Shown one piece after another: positions 4,144 through 17,254 of a DNA stretch of 23,008 nt. The translations under genes were made by a program, and so were the position numbers. Within the stretch, counting starts at the first letter, position 1, and every line of letters starts with the position of its first letter. Under the pieces are notes generated by a model. It was not told the origin of the DNA. It worked only from the letters and a program-made list of their open reading frames with translations, and ran no database searches. Origin of the DNA: a virus; IMG/VR virus record IMGVR_UViG_3300037508_000677, positions 1 through 23,008 of that record; one strand, written 5' to 3'.

Positions 4144-4292
4144 GGCGTTCCTTTCGCTGCTATGTAGAGACCGATGTTCGAGAACGCGTATCCCGCGTAG
4201 GCGAGGGCAAGCCCGTGCTTGCCCTGCCACGCGAGATCCGCTGCCACATAGGCGTAGATCAACCCGGTGATGGCGATCAGCGGAGCAGCCAT
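4140..4292 (-). CDS. Small membrane protein (50 aa)
   Basis: Starts at ATG 4292, sharing one base with the dnaN stop codon (TGATG). The 50 residues form two hydrophobic stretches: MAAPLIAITGLIYAYVAADL, then after WQGKHG, LALAYAGYAFSNIGLYIAA. Two membrane helices with a short polar hairpin fit a very small inner-membrane protein. A holin role can be imagined but no lysin is nearby, so no function is assigned. The stop overlaps the start of the HTH gene by 4 bp. Confidence 0.55.
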   Translation of the reverse strand: MAAPLIAITGLIYAYVAADLAWQGKHGLALAYAGYAFSNIGLYIAAKGTP

Positions 4293-5413
4293 CACGCATC
4301 CTTCGCGAGCGGCATGATGATTCCGGTGATGTCGCCGCACTTGAGCATCACCCGGCTCTCGGGGTCGGTCGCGTACACGTCCACCTGGGGCTCGCCGTCG
4401 CCGGGCAAGTGCTCCAGAAACTCGACCACGTATCGCGGATCGACCTTCGTCGCACTTGTCGTGCCGGGCGAGACGAGTTCGCACTTCACGATCGACTCGC
4501 CGAACTCACTCGACCGGGCCGAGATCGCGAGCGTGTTGTTCGTCCACGTCAGATCTACGCCCTTCGATTGCTCGCTGGTCACGATGGCGGCGGCCCGCAC
4601 CGCAGACTTCAAGTCGGCGATTTCCAACACGCTCGGCTCCCCCTCTGGCTCGCCCATCACGTCACGCCAACGCGGGAACTGCCCCTCGGTCACCTGCCCG
4701 TAGACCGTGCCGGCGTCAGTCGTGAACATCACTTGCCGGTCGTTCGCCTCGACCTCCACCAGCCCGTCGCCGTGAGCCATTCCCGTGACGATCCGCATCA
4801 CGCGAGCGGGCACCAGCACCTTCCGCGAGTCGGTCGCCTGGTCGGTCTCGGTCTCGACACAGCACAGCCGGCGACCATCGGTCGCCACCCAGAACTGAGC
4901 CGACCCGTCCCGGCTGGGCTCGACCTCCAGCAGCACCGCCCCGAGGGCGTAGCGGCTGCTCTCGGTGTCGCACGCGTAGGCGGTCGCCGTCGCGGCCCGG
5001 CGGAACTGATCCGCAGGCAGCCGGCACGCGGGCTTAAGTTCGCCCGTCGTGTTCGCCGGGAACTCGGCCGCTTCCTCGGTGGGCAACGTCCACTTCCCCG
5101 AGCCACACTTCACGAGCACGCTCGAATCCTTCGGCGTCAGCGTCACCTCGTCGCCGGTCGCCGCACGCACGATCTCCAAGAGACGCCCGTGAGGCACGAG
5201 CATGGGCTCGCCCTCTTCGCCGATCTTGACCTCGATCCGCACTTCGAGGTCGGTCGCGGTCATCAGCCCGTCGCCGATGCGGACGTTGGTCAGCACCGGC
5301 TTCGGCGAGCGGGTCGGCACCGCCGGCTTCACCGCCTGGAGGGCGGCGAGCAGTTCAGTTCGGGAAAACTTGATGCCACTTGCGGGCTTCGTCTTTGTTG
5401 CGGTCGCGGTCAT
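4292..5413 (-). CDS. dnaN: DNA polymerase III beta subunit (sliding clamp)
   Basis: A 373-residue protein, the length of bacterial DnaN (about 366-380). The clamp encircles DNA as a dimer and tethers polymerases and other partners. After a short Thr/Lys-rich leader, IKFSRTELLAALQAVKPAVP starts domain 1. Domain landmarks include TRSPKPVLTNVRI, TATDLEVRIEVKI, FWVATDGRRLCCVE (the conserved ATDG/hR motif of the second domain) and a C-terminal IIMPLAKDA corresponding to the MPMR-type end that helps form the partner pocket. AAAGGA precedes the ATG. It sits between very small genes in the phage replication operon, implying the phage supplies its own clamp for a host-type or phage polymerase. Confidence 0.92.
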   Translation of the reverse strand: MTATATKTKPASGIKFSRTELLAALQAVKPAVPTRSPKPVLTNVRIGDGLMTATDLEVRIEVKIGEEGEPMLVPHGRLLEIVRAATGDEVTLTPKDSSVLVKCGSGKWTLPTEEAAEFPANTTGELKPACRLPADQFRRAATATAYACDTESSRYALGAVLLEVEPSRDGSAQFWVATDGRRLCCVETETDQATDSRKVLVPARVMRIVTGMAHGDGLVEVEANDRQVMFTTDAGTVYGQVTEGQFPRWRDVMGEPEGEPSVLEIADLKSAVRAAAIVTSEQSKGVDLTWTNNTLAISARSSEFGESIVKCELVSPGTTSATKVDPRYVVEFLEHLPGDGEPQVDVYATDPESRVMLKCGDITGIIMPLAKDA

Positions 5414-5779: not shown

Positions 5780-6033
5780 GCGGCACCGCCTTTCTGGGCG
5801 AGAATCGCTTGCAGGTACTTCGCCATCCGGCGGTTGTCGTCAGCGAGCCGCTCGCACTGCGTCTCCATCCGCTCGGCCCGCACCGCACACCGGGCGGCTC
5901 GGGCCGCGAGCCGGCGGATGTGATGGTGGGCGAGTTCCAAGGCACGGCGGGCACCGTCGTTGAGATCGTCATCCCACGAGTGAGCCTCGCAGAGATTGGC
6001 GACATCGCCCGGCGGGAGGGGGCGGCGTTTCAT
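5776..6033 (-). CDS. Small coiled-coil protein
   Basis: An 85-residue protein with no recognised domain. From about residue 24 it is Ala/Arg-rich and helical (ALELAHHHIRRLAARAARCA, then ERMETQCERLADDNRRMAKY) with a heptad-like pattern, so a coiled coil is likely. The ATG overlaps the stop of the winged-helix gene upstream by 4 bp, and its stop overlaps the zinc-ribbon gene by 4 bp. It is probably a minor member of the replication operon. Confidence 0.5.
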   Translation of the reverse strand: MKRRPLPPGDVANLCEAHSWDDDLNDGARRALELAHHHIRRLAARAARCAVRAERMETQCERLADDNRRMAKYLQAILAQKGGAA

Positions 6034-6266
6034 TCGTCACCCCCGATCGGCACGATGCTGTTCGCACGCCCCGGCACGCGGGTCACGTAGCCCCGCTTTT
6101 CGAGATAGACGAGGTGGCAGTACGCCGCCGAAGGCGACGCCCAGCCGAACGCTTCGCCGATCTCGCGAACGCCGATGCCGTAGCCTCGCTCCGCGTAGGT
6201 GTTCACGATCCAGCGGTACACCGCTTTCTGCCGCTTCGTCAGCGGCGGTCGAGCCGTCGTGGTCAT
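6030..6266 (-). CDS. LexA-type winged helix DNA-binding protein
   Basis: A 78-residue protein starting at ATG 6266 in an ATGA overlap with the replication gene. It matches the LexA N-terminal DNA-binding domain in layout: LTKRQKAVYRWIVNTYAERG (first helix), VREIGEAFGWASPSAAYCHL (helix-turn-helix) and LEKRGYVTRVPGRANSI (wing). There is no C-terminal Ser/Lys peptidase domain, so it cannot self-cleave like LexA. It probably acts as a small repressor or as an origin or operator binder. Its position directly after the gene holding the candidate origin is suggestive only. Confidence 0.7.
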   Translation of the reverse strand: MTTTARPPLTKRQKAVYRWIVNTYAERGYGIGVREIGEAFGWASPSAAYCHLVYLEKRGYVTRVPGRANSIVPIGGDE

Positions 6267-7096
6267 AGATCCTCCTCCTTGAGTTTCAACGTCGATGCAA
6301 TCGCGGCGACTTCCTTGGGCGATCGGTACGCCGCCGGTCGGTACTGGTCTTTCCACGCCTTCGGCGGGGGCTTGTCATCGGGGCGGCGGCCCGGCTCGCG
6401 GTTCGTGCCGCCCTTGTCCTGGCACCGCTGGAGCCAGCCGACGAGGAACCGCCGCCAGTTCCGCTTGCCGCACCGCTGGGGGTTCGCCTTGAGCCACGAG
6501 GTCGCCTTGGCGAGCTCCTGGGCAAGCACGGCTCCGGGGAACGCCGTAGCCCACTCCAGGCGGTCGGCGTCAGTGATGCCCTCCCAGCCGGAATCCGCAG
6601 ACCACGAGAGGGAAGGCTTCGCCCGCGACCGAGACGGCTTTGCCGGCTCGCTCGTGGGAACCGGCGCAGCCGGTTGTAATTCTTCTCTCTTCTCCTCTCC
6701 TCTCCTCTCCTCTAGTCCGCAATCTGTCCGCTCGTCATGCGGACAAGATGCGGACATCCTGCGGACAGACTTCGCCCGAGCGTCTAAAAGCCGCCTTTTT
6801 GCGGCATTTCCGAACCGCTCCGACCAGCCTGGGATGGTGATGGAATCGTCCGTAGACACCAACCAACCCGCCCGCTCAACAGCAGACCAGAAGGTTTCGT
6901 CCCCGCCCGCGACCGTGGCGAGCATCGACCGGGGCACCCGGATCGTGCCGTCAGCCGTCACGTGCCACGCCCACGACCACAGGCGAACCATCCGGCCGAC
7001 CACGACCTCAATAGGCTCGTGAGTCGCCGCTGCCACCTCTAGCACCTCGGGCTTCGTGCCCAGGTTGCAGTCAATGGGTATCCATTCACCGGCCAT
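6263..7096 (-). CDS. Phage replication initiation / replisome organizer-like protein
   Basis: A 277-residue protein. The N-terminal domain (about 1-110) begins MAGEWIPIDCNLGTKPEVL and continues RMVRLWSWAWHVTADGTIRV, then AGWLVSTDDSITIPGWSER. This is the winged-helix style of phage replication initiators and replisome organizers. A charged linker (about 115-150, EERRGEEKREE) follows. The C-terminal domain has ITDADRLEWATAFPGAV and a WLKANPQRCGKRNWRRFLVG segment, as in DnaT/helicase-loader-like phage proteins. AGGAG precedes the ATG. The linker-coding DNA contains iterons and a pentanucleotide tract, listed separately, resembling the placement of the lambda origin inside gene O. The assignment rests on architecture and not on a catalytic motif. 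Confidence 0.65.
   Translation of the reverse strand: MAGEWIPIDCNLGTKPEVLEVAAATHEPIEVVVGRMVRLWSWAWHVTADGTIRVPRSMLATVAGGDETFWSAVERAGWLVSTDDSITIPGWSERFGNAAKRRLLDARAKSVRRMSASCPHDERTDCGLEERRGEEKREELQPAAPVPTSEPAKPSRSRAKPSLSWSADSGWEGITDADRLEWATAFPGAVLAQELAKATSWLKANPQRCGKRNWRRFLVGWLQRCQDKGGTNREPGRRPDDKPPPKAWKDQYRPAAYRSPKEVAAIASTLKLKEEDL
6659..6806. other. Candidate intragenic replication origin (iterons, polypurine tract, hairpins)
   Basis: Three direct GCGGACA heptamers start at 6739, 6750 and 6761, exactly 11 bp apart. An inverted copy lies at 6725-6731 and a partial one at 6715-6720. On the left is a polypyrimidine tract (about 6680-6713) and a perfect 7-bp stem with 3-nt loop (6659-6675). On the right, GCCGC and GCGGC flank CTTTTT (6790-6805) in an AT-richer patch. 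All of this sits in the linker-coding part of the replication gene. Iterons inside the initiator gene are established for lambda O. Function here is inferred. Confidence 0.45.
6691..6713 (+). repeat. Pentanucleotide TCTCC microsatellite (four units plus TCT)
   Basis: Four perfect TCTCC units followed by TCT lie inside the replication gene. On the coding strand they read as GGAGA units encoding Glu, Arg and Gly. The unit is not a multiple of three, so gain or loss of one copy would shift the reading frame between the two domains. Confidence 0.9.
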
Positions 7097-8943: not shown

Positions 8944-9756
8944 TCAAACCAGTGCCGGTGTCCTCGGCGTCTTCGTCCTCAACTGCGACCAATCGCAGTA
9001 GGCTTGCTCGAACAGTGCCGGCGACCGATGCCCTAGGTGCAGCCGTCCGCTGCCCGCCTGCTCCATCTCGCAGTGAGTCGCCCCCGAGCGTCTCAGCCAC
9101 TTCGAGGTGCCGCCGATGCCGAGCTCGTCTAGCAACTCCCGCATCAGCCGGCACGCTTGCCGCTTGCCGCAGGCCCACCTGAGGATCGTGCCGTCGGGCG
9201 ACTTCGCGAGCATCGCGTCGATCGCGTCCAGGCAAGCGGGCGTGAGCACCCGCGTGAGCGGCTCGCCCGTCTTCGCCTGCGTCCACGCGAGCGAGTCGCC
9301 GTCGATGTGCTCGCGGCGGAACCCGAACAGATCGCCCATGCGGGCTCCGCATTCGTAGCCCAGCAGCACCCACGCTCTCAGGAACGCCCCGCGATCCGCC
9401 CCGCTGCGGAGCCGGCGACCGTCGTGCTTTCGCGTCGCATCGACCAGCGTCTTCAGTTGCGGCACCGTCCACGCTTTTGTGGGCTTCCGCCGGGCTCGCA
9501 GTTTGCCGATCCCGCGAGGGGCTTCCTCGACCCTGCCCGAGTGGTACGCGTGGCACCAGACCGAGAGCAGGATCGTCCGCTCGTTGCGGGCGGTGATGCC
9601 GCTGACTTGCTCCAGGCGGCGCGCGAGGTAGCGGTTCAACTTGTCGCTGCCGATGGTGCCGGCCCGCGCCGCGATGGCACGAACGTGCCGCCCGTAGGCG
9701 GGCGAGACCTTGCGGCCCGCGAGGTAGTGCTCGGCAAGTTCGGTGAAGGTAGTCAT
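8944..9756 (-). CDS. Tyrosine recombinase (second, non-integrase position)
   Basis: A 270-residue protein. The catalytic tyrosine-recombinase residues can be placed as Arg139 (ECGARMGDLFGF), Lys162 (TQAKTGEPL), Arg222 in KWLRRSGATH, His243 (LGHRS) and the nucleophile Tyr253 (AYCDW). The usual HxxR histidine is Lys219. The N-terminal 90 residues form the core-binding domain with a long helix region. Gene size is within the family range (about 270-400). The start ATGA-overlaps the stop of the coiled-coil gene, with GGAGGAG upstream. It lies 6.5 kb from int, inside the replication operon, so it may resolve dimers, act at a second site, or be a remnant of a nested element. Confidence 0.85.
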   Translation of the reverse strand: MTTFTELAEHYLAGRKVSPAYGRHVRAIAARAGTIGSDKLNRYLARRLEQVSGITARNERTILLSVWCHAYHSGRVEEAPRGIGKLRARRKPTKAWTVPQLKTLVDATRKHDGRRLRSGADRGAFLRAWVLLGYECGARMGDLFGFRREHIDGDSLAWTQAKTGEPLTRVLTPACLDAIDAMLAKSPDGTILRWACGKRQACRLMRELLDELGIGGTSKWLRRSGATHCEMEQAGSGRLHLGHRSPALFEQAYCDWSQLRTKTPRTPALV

Positions 9757-9938
9757 CGCGTCTCCTCCGCGAGCAGCCGCTTGTCGAGGTGTTCATTCAC
9801 ATCACGCAACGCCCGGCAGAGCGTGTGCAGACGCCGGTTCTCCTCGCGGAGCCTTTCGTTCTCAGCCTCCAGCGACTCGGCGAGTTGCCTCAGATCGCGG
9901 GAAGGTCGGGGACGGAAGATGGAGAGGAGCCAGTTCAT
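9753..9938 (-). CDS. Small coiled-coil protein (61 aa)
   Basis: Starts at ATG 9938 (GGAGG upstream, ATGA overlap with the PAPS-reductase-like gene). After a short hydrophobic and basic start (MNWLLSIFRPRP), residues 15-55 are a heptad-rich helix (LRQLAESLEAENERLREENR), a clear leucine-zipper-like coiled coil. It is probably an accessory protein that forms oligomers. Family unknown. The stop overlaps the recombinase start by 4 bp. Confidence 0.55.
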   Translation of the reverse strand: MNWLLSIFRPRPSRDLRQLAESLEAENERLREENRRLHTLCRALRDVNEHLDKRLLAEETR

Positions 9939-11212
9939 GCCACCGCCTCCGCGTCGAAGAGTCGCCGTTGCGCCCGCTCCTGCCGTTTCCGCTCTTGCTC
10001 TTGCCGCTTGGCTTCCGCACGGCGAGCATCACGCAGCCGGATGTACGTTCCGTAGGCTTCCGACTTTGGCTGCGTCTGCCCGAGCCCCTTGCACCAGTAG
10101 TCGTTCCGCAGGAGCACCTTGCACATCCGCCGCCAAGACGGTGCCCAGCACTTCGACTCCAACTCGGGCGGTGCTTCTTCGGGGATGCCCGTGTAGCCCC
10201 GCTGGTGCCAGCCCCAGATGAACTTCTTGAACCGGGCCGCGTAGTGGTCGCGAGTCTTCTTCGGCATGGTCTGCAACAAGAGGTTGCAGAACGACTTCCA
10301 CGTATGCCCCTCGGGCTTCGTGATCTTGTGGTATCCGTTGATGTTGCCTTTCTCCTCGATGTAGAGCGATCCGCTGTTCGCGCCGTTGACGCGGGCCACG
10401 AGCTTGAACCACGTCTGAGGCTCAAGAATGTGATACAGCCAGAGCCCGCGTCGCTGGTCATCGCCGAACGGCTGGCAGAGCCGTTGCTGCGAGAGCTTCA
10501 CGCCCGCTTGATTCATGCGGTCGTAAATGTTGTTGTGCGGCTTGTCGGGATGCTTGGCGTGATACCGCCAAATATCCTCGGTCAGCCAATCGTAGATCGG
10601 GTAGACGTTGAACACGCGATCCACGATGTTCGTTGTCCACCGCCGCCCGCCGAACGTCTTGCCGCGCTTCTCCCAGGTCGCAATCGCACAGTAGCGGTGC
10701 AGGCTTTCTTGCGCCCGAATGCCGATAAACCCGGCAGTGAGCTCGCCTTGCCCGTACCACTCGCCGAATAGAACGATAAACTCCTCGAACTCCATGCCGG
10801 CCACGGCGAACGGGTAGTCGCGTTCTGTCTTGCAAGCCATCGGCTTGTCGCGAACCCACGCCTCCCGCTTCGCCTCATCCCAGCACGTCCACCTGGGCTC
10901 GTAGTTCGTCACCGCGTTACGAAGCAGCATCGGCATGCAGATCCAATGCGGGTCGATGTTGTCGCGGTAGAGGTGGAACATCTCATCTATGTGGGCGATC
11001 GTGTCGGCATACTGAGCCTCGAAGTCGATGAACATCACCGCGACCTTGCGACCCCGCTTAATGGCCTCCTCCATCACGAGGTGCATCATCACGCTCGAAT
11101 CCTTGCCGCCGCTGAACGCGACGTAGATTCGCGGGAAGTTGTCGAAGGTCTCGGCGATGCGTCGCCTTGCTGCCGTCAGCACGTCGATGTCGCTGAATCT
11201 CTTGACGCCCAT
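9935..11212 (-). CDS. PAPS reductase/DUF3440-family protein (IbrA/YbdN-like)
   Basis: A 425-residue protein. The PP-loop ATP-pyrophosphatase motif is RIYVAFSGGKDSSVMMHL (SGGKDSS at 34-40), followed by KVAVMFIDFEAQY, the strand seen in phosphoadenosine phosphosulfate reductase-like enzymes. The C-terminal part (about 220 onward, with NVYPIYDWLTEDIWRYHAKH, KLSQQRLCQPFGDDQRRGLW) is the DUF3440 extension of E. coli YbdN and IbrA. The tail is a Lys/Arg/Gln-rich helix. The start at 11212 shares one base with the ParB-like gene stop (TAATG). The longer reading to 11413 is a shadow. With the preceding ParB-like protein it reproduces the IbrA/IbrB pairing. IbrA/IbrB are known as prophage-encoded transcription activators of eib genes in E. 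coli. The chemistry is unproven, and a role in nucleic-acid sulfur or base modification is possible. Confidence 0.85.
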   Translation of the reverse strand: MGVKRFSDIDVLTAARRRIAETFDNFPRIYVAFSGGKDSSVMMHLVMEEAIKRGRKVAVMFIDFEAQYADTIAHIDEMFHLYRDNIDPHWICMPMLLRNAVTNYEPRWTCWDEAKREAWVRDKPMACKTERDYPFAVAGMEFEEFIVLFGEWYGQGELTAGFIGIRAQESLHRYCAIATWEKRGKTFGGRRWTTNIVDRVFNVYPIYDWLTEDIWRYHAKHPDKPHNNIYDRMNQAGVKLSQQRLCQPFGDDQRRGLWLYHILEPQTWFKLVARVNGANSGSLYIEEKGNINGYHKITKPEGHTWKSFCNLLLQTMPKKTRDHYAARFKKFIWGWHQRGYTGIPEEAPPELESKCWAPSWRRMCKVLLRNDYWCKGLGQTQPKSEAYGTYIRLRDARRAEAKRQEQERKRQERAQRRLFDAEAVA

Positions 11213-12351
11213 TAGTAAATCTCCATCTCGCGGTCGGGAGCGGCGGTGCTCATGTCCACCGGCTTGCGACCATTTGCTTTTAGCCACTTGTTCAGAGCCG
11301 CCAGGGCCGCAGCATTCGCTGCTTCTTGCTGGTCGCTGGTCAGCAGGTAGAAGCCGCCGCGATAGGTCGCAGGGATGCCGATGGCGTAGCACGCCGCCGC
11401 TTGCCCCAGCCATGCAATGCGGTTCATGGCAGCGTTGGTCAGGTAGTGCTCACACGAGTTCTTCCACTTCGTGATGACGCCGCGCAACGCTTTCTTGAAC
11501 GCAGGGATGTCGGCCAGGAGATCCCGCATTGCGGCTTCGCATTCCGCTTTGTTCATGCCTTCCTTGGTGGTGGCATAGAACCCTGCCTTGTGGCACTCCC
11601 ACTTGTCATAGGTGTGGAAGATGCGACCTTCGTCGGACGTGTTGACAGTGCGAAAGCCAGCGGTCTCGTCTTCCCCGTAGCTCTGAACATCGTCGGTCAG
11701 TTCGGCGAAGTCGGCCTCAGTGACCGAGCCTTCAACGTCCCACGATTTCGAGAACTCTTGGTCGGTGAATAGTTCCGCTAGTCCGCTGATCTGGCAGAGC
11801 CGCAGGATCTCGTCTTGATCCATGCCGAGCTCGCGGGCGATCTTTTCGTCTGCCCAGTTGCGACGCTTCAACTCGATCACGATGTCGCTCATCGCCGACA
11901 CCGCGTGCTTGCCGCGAGCCCGGTTGTGCCGGATGGTCGAAGCGATGCGGTCGCCGCGATCCTGTCGCTCGGTGTTGATGATCGTGAGGGGAAGGTAGCC
12001 GCGAATCCGCTGCCGAACCTCCATGCACTCGCGGCCTACGCGGTTGCGGTGGAATCCGTCTACGACTTCGTGAACGTATTCACGCTTCCACGAGACGATC
12101 GGCTGCGTGTATCCGTCTTCGAGGATGGACAACTTGAGCAGTTCCATCTCTGGCGGCGCGACGCTGTTCGGGTTGTAGTCGTTCGCCTGGATGTTCTCAG
12201 TGTGAATCCACTGAATGCAGTCCACCGGCTCCCGCTTGAACGGGCCTGCGTCGTGCATCATCCGACGAGCGGCATTGAGTTCCTCGACTTGCTGGGCAAG
12301 TGGCAGTCGCTCCAACTGCTTGCACCAATCGGCAATGAAATCAAGCATCAT
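11212..12351 (-). CDS. ParB-like protein with HTH (IbrB/YbdM-like partner)
   Basis: A 379-residue protein. The ParB/Srx-fold domain carries VDCIQWIHTENIQANDYNPN, LLKLSILEDGYTQPIV and VVDGFHRNRVGRE (96-107), the DGFHR box. Next come ASTIRHNRARGKHAVSAMSD and an HTH (ADEKIARELGMDQDEILRL, about 167-185). This order is that of IbrB-type proteins, here extended by a 180-residue C-terminal region (from DVEGSV) not seen in the short E. coli proteins. That region contains HTYDKWECHKAGFY and a KAECEAAMRDLL helix. AAGGAG lies seven bases before the first of two adjacent ATGs. It probably controls or targets the PAPS-reductase-like partner encoded immediately downstream. Confidence 0.82.
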   Translation of the reverse strand: MMLDFIADWCKQLERLPLAQQVEELNAARRMMHDAGPFKREPVDCIQWIHTENIQANDYNPNSVAPPEMELLKLSILEDGYTQPIVSWKREYVHEVVDGFHRNRVGRECMEVRQRIRGYLPLTIINTERQDRGDRIASTIRHNRARGKHAVSAMSDIVIELKRRNWADEKIARELGMDQDEILRLCQISGLAELFTDQEFSKSWDVEGSVTEADFAELTDDVQSYGEDETAGFRTVNTSDEGRIFHTYDKWECHKAGFYATTKEGMNKAECEAAMRDLLADIPAFKKALRGVITKWKNSCEHYLTNAAMNRIAWLGQAAACYAIGIPATYRGGFYLLTSDQQEAANAAALAALNKWLKANGRKPVDMSTAAPDREMEIY

Positions 12352-16315: not shown

Positions 16316-17254
16316 ATGGAGCCGATCACGCTGGCAGAGCTTTTTGAGCGGTACGGAGACCTACGGAATCTCGACGCCAAGACGATGCAGCTCTACGTCA
16401 TGCTGCTCGACCGCCTGCGTGCGTTCCTAGGGCACGAGCCAACCACTGCCGACCTCGATGACCTTACGATCAGCCGCTACCTCAGACATCGCGCCACGCA
16501 TCTCTACCGTGGGCAGCCGATCCGCCCGGCGAGCGTCCAGAAGGACAAGGTCATGATCGCCGCCGTGTGGAACCTCGCCGCCCGAAAGCGATGGGTGAGC
16601 GAGTTCCCCGAGCTCCCCCGCATCAAAGTCGCCAAGAGCATCCCGACCGGGCGGGCCTACACCGCCGAAGACGTTGCCACGCTCATCCGACGGGCTCGCC
16701 GCCGGATCGGCACGACCGGCGAGCAGCCCTCGGCATGGTGGTGGAGCACGCTGATCTACATGGCGTACTGCACGGGCGAGCGGGCGACCGCCCTTCTCAG
16801 CCTGCGGTGGGGGGAACTCGACACTGCCCGCCGCCGGGTCATTTTCCTGGGCGCGACCCGGAAAGGATCGACCCGCGACATCGAGCGAGACTTCACCGCC
16901 GACCTCGCCGGATTCCTCGAAGCCCGCCGCCGCCGCCCCGAGGATCTCGTCTGGCCGTGGGATCGGCATCGCGGGAGCCTCTGGACGAGCCTCAAACTGC
17001 TCTGCCGGCTGGCAGGGGTGAAGTACCGGGGCTTTCATGGGCTGCGGCGTACCAGAGCCTCCTACGCAGCCCTGGCGGGCGGTACGGCTGCCGCCACCCA
17101 GGTGCTCGATCACAGCGATCCCAAGCTACAGGAACGCTACGTAGACCCCCAGATATGCCCCAGCGAGCAGAGCGGGGTCGAGGTCATGCCGTCGCTGCGG
17201 CTGGAGGAGCCGCCAGCCGGGCAGGAAGAGCCGCCCGCCGAGCCGGCGGCGTGA
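16316..17254 (+). CDS. int: Phage integrase, tyrosine recombinase
   Basis: A 312-residue protein and the only gene on the plus strand. The catalytic set is complete: Arg156 (TGERATALLSLRW), Lys183 (TRKGST), His241 and Arg244 (HGLRRTRASY), His266 (VLDHSD) and Tyr275 (ERYVDP). The N-terminus MEPITLAELFERYGD opens a SAM-like core-binding domain (TMQLYVMLLDRLRAFLGH). The C-terminus is Glu/Pro-rich (LRLEEPPAGQEEPPAEPA). GAGGGAG lies close before the ATG. It is convergent, 2 bp apart, with one excisionase-like gene and divergent from another. It should catalyse integration and excision at an att site not located here. Confidence 0.95.
   Translation: MEPITLAELFERYGDLRNLDAKTMQLYVMLLDRLRAFLGHEPTTADLDDLTISRYLRHRATHLYRGQPIRPASVQKDKVMIAAVWNLAARKRWVSEFPELPRIKVAKSIPTGRAYTAEDVATLIRRARRRIGTTGEQPSAWWWSTLIYMAYCTGERATALLSLRWGELDTARRRVIFLGATRKGSTRDIERDFTADLAGFLEARRRRPEDLVWPWDRHRGSLWTSLKLLCRLAGVKYRGFHGLRRTRASYAALAGGTAAATQVLDHSDPKLQERYVDPQICPSEQSGVEVMPSLRLEEPPAGQEEPPAEPAA

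Follow-up and report, generated by a model that had tools for sequence, protein, structure and literature searches.

Origins of replication located inside the initiator gene are known from bacteriophage lambda, so a site of this kind is not in itself new. The lambda record annotates four iterons within O, at 39034–39118; beyond them the sequence continues as ACAAAAGAAAAAAGAAAAG and then forms an inverted repeat around AATT. RepA_N plasmid initiators have a winged-helix N-terminal domain, and their iterons lie midway through the initiator gene. Geminivirus Rep, treated together with its iterons in PMC12548392, offers a further comparison. Rep is a rolling-circle protein that is unrelated to the initiator analysed here, and its iterons lie upstream of the gene, whereas those described below lie inside it. 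PMC5043065 describes the A+T tract of the lambda origin as having its purines almost all on one strand, and PMC3945230 places an active origin, oriJ, on the Rac prophage.

The window, meaning the whole 23,008 nt stretch analysed here, comprises positions 1 to 23,008 of the IMG/VR record IMGVR_UViG_3300037508_000677. We consider it likely (at a probability of roughly 0.85) that positions 6659–6802 are a lambda-ori/O-like origin inside its own initiator gene, with a proposed mechanism that includes docking of a helix, opening of a tract and exchange of a cassette. The features of the locus are as follows.

6263–7096, minus strand: replication initiator gene, 277 residues, with profile matches to phrog_2509 and phrog_9474
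6803–7096, minus strand: N-terminal domain (residues 1–98), helices and short strands, winged-helix-like in the AlphaFold2 model
6749–6802, minus strand: predicted DNA-recognition helix (residues 99–116), basic, a helix in both models
6761–6767, minus strand: iteron 1, TGTCCGC
6750–6756, minus strand: iteron 2, TGTCCGC
6739–6745, minus strand: iteron 3, TGTCCGC
6725–6731, plus strand: iteron 4, inverted TGTCCGC
6715–6720, plus strand: iteron 5, inverted 6 nt copy GTCCGC, adjoining the purine tract
6680–6713, minus strand: 34 nt all-purine tract of the coding strand (34 of 34), presumed unwinding element
6659–6675, no strand assigned: 17 nt hairpin with a 7 bp stem, coding strand AACCGGC-TGC-GCCGGTT, with compensatory changes in relatives
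6263–6658, minus strand: remaining linker and C-terminal domain, structured at about residues 164–228 (pLDDT about 85)

The initiator protein belongs to the phrog_2509 family ('replication initiation protein'), which it matches over residues 1–235, most of its length, with E = 1e-23; it also matches phrog_9474 ('replication initiation protein') with E = 3e-18. A Pfam search with the protein returned zero family matches. Membership of the lambda O family (PF04492) was rejected, as lambda O itself scores 5.7e-36 and the window protein and 39 relatives give no match. The RepA_N N-terminal domain was likewise sought in the window protein, with no Pfam match of any kind and fold matches that are not significant. 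The N-terminal domain is modelled with a pLDDT above 90 across most of residues 1–98, the helix spans residues 97/99–116 in both structure models, and residues 120–160 of the linker are predicted to be charged and disordered; the C-terminal domain presumably contacts the replisome or a helicase loader. The iterons and the purine tract lie in the codons for the helix end and for the disordered linker. A PDB fold search with the N-terminal domain gave nothing at E ≤ 0.001 and only weak CAP/winged-helix matches, the weak matches including chains named initiator and Rep–DNA complex; some of its viral fold matches bear the names primosomal protein 1 and replisome organizer. PDB-sequence profile matches to recA fusion chains, covering 28 residues with no stretch passing alone, were dismissed, as was one further weak match, to a glycosyl hydrolase.

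On the plus strand, GCGGACA starts exactly at 6739, 6750 and 6761, with the 11 bp pitch that had been claimed, and both the inverted TGTCCGC at 6725 and the partial inverted copy at 6715, which retains the 6 nt core GTCCGC, are present as the original prediction described them. The window as a whole contains no excess of the word (five copies of TGTCCGC against a shuffle mean of 6.7), and four of the five lie inside 43 bp. Within the window, only the array heptamer and its shifted version GTCCGCA reach four copies in 60 bp. When synonymous codons were shuffled within the gene, the linker acquired at most three copies of TGTCCGC (two of 2000 shuffles) and never four (0/2000), and four linker copies of any 7-mer arose in none of 400 shuffles. 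The 11 bp pitch is not divisible by three; the three direct copies therefore fall in three reading frames, and the repetition belongs to the DNA and is not a protein repeat. The polypurine/polypyrimidine tract that had been noted beside the array is all-purine at 34 of 34 positions and shows a stronger strand asymmetry than any other 34 bp in the window. It is of the GAGGAGAG type, about half G, and lacks the A+T-richness of a lambda-type origin.

The likeness to lambda O is closer than was first stated. Both loci carry iterons, a strand-asymmetric tract with the purines on the coding strand and a hairpin or inverted repeat, with order and strand in agreement, and in both genes the array lies between the N- and C-terminal domains. 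Lambda O precedes P, and several cultured relatives of the window family precede a helicase-loader gene. The differences are of scale and composition: lambda has four 18 bp sites 20–24 bp apart, whereas the window has words of 6–7 bp about 11 bp apart that are inverted at the end, and the lambda tract is A+T-rich whereas that of the window is G-rich.

Scans of IMG/VR and of cultured phages yielded 153 distinct initiators with a readable N-terminal domain and linker. One scan, of bacterial genomes, yielded three small MAG contigs (Planctomycetota, Phycisphaerales and Burkholderiales) that are too short for a host call. Among the contigs collected, the initiator frame of L042 ends after 29 codons and may contain a frameshift or sequence error, and in L175 the linker stretch viewed codes for a tandem protein repeat of GEGLGEGL type instead. 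Conservation of the heptamer spacing had been set beforehand as a point open to refutation and is strongly borne out: in 135 of the 153 relatives the linker repeats exceed those of 95% of codon shuffles. Summed over the 153 linkers, the repeated 6-mer pairs number 2572; codon shuffles give 489, and a control stretch of the same length from the N-terminal core gives 439. Successive copies are most commonly 11 bp apart (46 direct and 44 inverted intervals), and spacings of 22, 33 and 44 bp also occur. Direct copies usually come first and inverted ones after them, the final copy often abutting the purine tract, which was detected downstream in 144 of 153 relatives. As had been anticipated, the linker protein, predicted to be disordered, drifts among homologues while the layout of the repeats stays.

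The words themselves vary among relatives within this constant layout and include GTCCG, GTAAC, GTGAC, GTACGC, GTGGC and longer GGGCGC-type forms, classes that were named after the sequences had been viewed and that mechanical 6-mer counting mostly reproduces. Copies within one gene mostly agree, which indicates concerted change of the word by clade. In L013–L015 TGTCCGC is replaced by CGTACGC in concert; L043 contains both CGTACGC and TGTCCGC and, judged by its repeats, looks like an intermediate between the two. A sister group (L072–L080) has a 15 bp near-palindromic site in two copies, which change together between subgroups (GGCGCACGAGCGCCC versus GGCGCTCGTGCGCCC).

Cultured initiators of phrog_2509/phrog_9474 come from E. 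coli phage ZX5 ('primosomal protein I'), Xanthomonas phage CP2 and Cobetia phage Carin1 and, as a Rac-type YdaU, from strain 442/2; their N-terminal domains are related to that of the window protein. Where their linkers were read, the layout matches the window. Carin1 has the TGTCCGC word, identical to that of the window, whereas most of the cultured initiators have GTAACGC-type words. Their C-terminal domains differ, one of them matching DnaT. The YdaU proteins of the Rac prophages in strain 442/2 and K-12 have near-identical C-terminal domains and different N-terminal domains, and their words are GTAACGC and TGTTCAAAC, respectively; module exchange is directly visible in these E. coli prophages. 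In K-12 the linker of the Rac ydaU gene (L099, 4120–4977), a DUF1376 YdaU, contains TGTTCAAAC repeats and an inverted GTTTGAAC. We predict that oriJ coincides with this linker, which is a candidate site. The C-terminal domain of the window protein is also found behind unrelated N-terminal domains: in L061–L070 it follows N-terminal domains of MARTRSIKP or DUF1376 type, and the linkers there carry different repeats, among them CCGGGAAATCC and CGCAAACGCAT.

The 7 bp hairpin described beside the tract covaries among relatives. It occurs beyond the tract in the closer relatives of the window, and its stem variants keep pairing (CCGGC/GCCGG, CCTGC/GCAGG, CATCTGC/GCAGATG and CCTCC/GGAGG), some of them altering the protein. 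None of 500 shuffles matched the covariation score, which is biased towards the hairpin as the rows were centred on it by hand, and in slid controls pairing drops to 15–46%. The hairpin in this form is absent with other C-terminal domains and so belongs to the C-terminal side of the gene. The AT-richer hairpin near 6784–6806 fared differently: it consists of the recognition-helix codons for AAKRRLL, is missing from most other iteron clades and was dropped as an origin element.

The iteron word tracks one face of the predicted basic helix (residues 101, 105, 109 and 112) and not the remainder of the N-terminal domain, a relation added by the present analysis. The information that each residue holds on the iteron type was computed on 97 representatives and expressed as a fraction of iteron-type entropy. 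Residues 109 and 105 are the most informative (0.64–0.72), followed by 112 and 101; the four span 0.39–0.72 and are spaced by 4, 4 and 3, which places them on one helix face. In many genes residues 112–116 overlap the iterons, which therefore dictate part of the word signal at these residues; such overlap hardly touches 101, 105 and 109, the only clean ones among the four. The helix neighbours 103, 104, 106, 107 and 111 give 0.08–0.18, and residues of the N-terminal core at most 0.23 each. All 37 GTCCG genes have Lys109 and Asp or Glu at 105. GTAAC genes mostly have Thr105, Val109 and His112, and GTGAC genes mostly His105, Gln109 and Tyr112; Met109 occurs in four of four GTGGC genes and Gln109 in three of three GTACGC genes. 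A tree built from the N-terminal core only implies at least 29 changes of the word. On the best tree, all 23 independent comparisons pair Lys109 with GTCCG and none runs against it (core controls, 0–3 of 23); strongly supported branches alone leave five independent pairs, in which the association holds in 4.9 of 5. Positions 100, 102, 108 and 113 of the helix are near-invariant in the family (Lys, Arg, Arg and Arg/Lys), while 101, 105, 109 and 112 vary; the window protein has Ala at 108, unlike the Arg of the family.

The initiators of L031 and L035 are identical over residues 1–95, have different words and differ in half of the helix. Their DNA identity is 80–100% before the helix, 33–37% across about 90 columns, 60% over the next 30 and again 90–100% past the purine tract, a pattern that marks a swap of about 120 bp. 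Specificity appears to reside in the short helix (residues 99–116) and not in the whole 1–110 domain. We think it reasonably probable that the helix, which lies outside the winged-helix-like core, and its own sites form a portable cassette of about 120 bp that sets specificity through a simple residue code and whose exchange switches replication specificity. The proposed code would pair Asp/Glu105 and Lys109 with GTCCG, Thr105 and Val109 with GTAAC, His105 and Gln109 with GTGAC, and Met109 with GTGGC. No earlier description of such a code was found in the open-access literature, most subscription journals and bioRxiv being outside this coverage.

From the sequence we infer that initiator binding, unwinding, loading and the start of replication take place at 6659–6802. 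In the proposed mechanism, copies of the initiator would dock on the 11 bp-phased TGTCCGC sites along one face of the DNA, each inserting the basic helix of residues 99–116, with positions 100, 102, 108 and 113 making general contacts and 101, 105, 109 and 112 reading the word. Docking would strain and open the adjoining purine/pyrimidine tract (6680–6713), the hairpin at 6659–6675 may form within the opened strand, and the C-terminal domain would recruit the host replisome or a helicase loader. The codons of the helix adjoin the sites, so that specificity would be exchangeable by one recombination of about 120 bp.

GC skew, which had been proposed as a check, shows no inflection inside the window. 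In three circular relatives, where gene orientation confounds the reading, the minimum is 784 bp away from the gene in one, 564 bp away in another and not near it in the third; skew was dropped as an origin marker, being uninformative in the window and mixed among these relatives. In several cultured relatives the initiator gene directly precedes a gene annotated as DnaC, replication protein P or DNA replication protein, and in others it does not. The scanned proteins of the window included no identifiable helicase loader, and seven related records yielded no DnaB. The phage encodes a DNA polymerase III β clamp (DnaN; 4292–5413, minus strand; all three domains matched) a little downstream of the initiator gene. 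The 23 kb record also contains overlapping genes for a PAPS-reductase/DUF3440 protein and a ParB-like protein (9938–11413 and 11212–12351, minus strand) and two integrase-like genes (8944–9756, minus strand, and 16316–17254, plus strand). We take the PAPS-reductase/DUF3440 and ParB-like pair to resemble the IbrA/IbrB pair.

Four rival accounts of the array were considered. A low-complexity linker could repeat by chance as an artefact of coding or composition, and the predicted disorder and charge of this linker would suit that; shuffles that preserve the protein fail to reproduce the repeats, which already contradicts such an origin for them, and the direct copies are read in different frames, leaving the artefact with next to no likelihood. 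The sites might instead be those of a different protein, such as the adjoining LexA-type HTH protein (6030–6356), since the gene for this LexA DNA-binding domain overlaps the end of the initiator gene. We hold this to be very improbable: the word follows the initiator's own residues in all of the independent comparisons, and the layout is kept in phages with different neighbouring genes.

Autoregulation is common among initiators, and the repeats could be initiator-binding sites for that function only, with the origin elsewhere; the sites do sit inside a transcribed gene, and the skew of the window lends the origin no support. We nevertheless regard autoregulation alone as quite unlikely, because the sites lie about 330 bp into the gene and not at a promoter, the constant strand-asymmetric tract and the hairpin that covaries in closer relatives point to a site of unwinding more readily than to an operator, and the order of the elements is that of the proven lambda origin. 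A further alternative would leave the segment as a possible origin and explain the association of helix and word by physical linkage alone, the DNA block being exchanged whole and the helix having no recognition role. Helix and iterons do lie within about 120 bp and are able to move together, but residues 103, 104, 106, 107 and 111 of the same block carry little of the signal (0.08–0.18) compared with 101, 105 and 109 on one face (0.41–0.72), and very different N-terminal cores that share GTCCG also share Lys109 and Asp/Glu105; we consider linkage alone unlikely.

The putative recognition key and its lock lie within a single reading frame in a great many phages, and initiator–origin recognition and the switching of specificity would therefore be readable from metagenomes. 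Recognition could be tested with small mutants of the purified domain, and for many genomes of uncultured phages the array offers a practical marker of the probable origin. If the proposal is true, cassette exchange would be a one-step switch of specificity, and each sequenced gene would record a matched protein–DNA pair.
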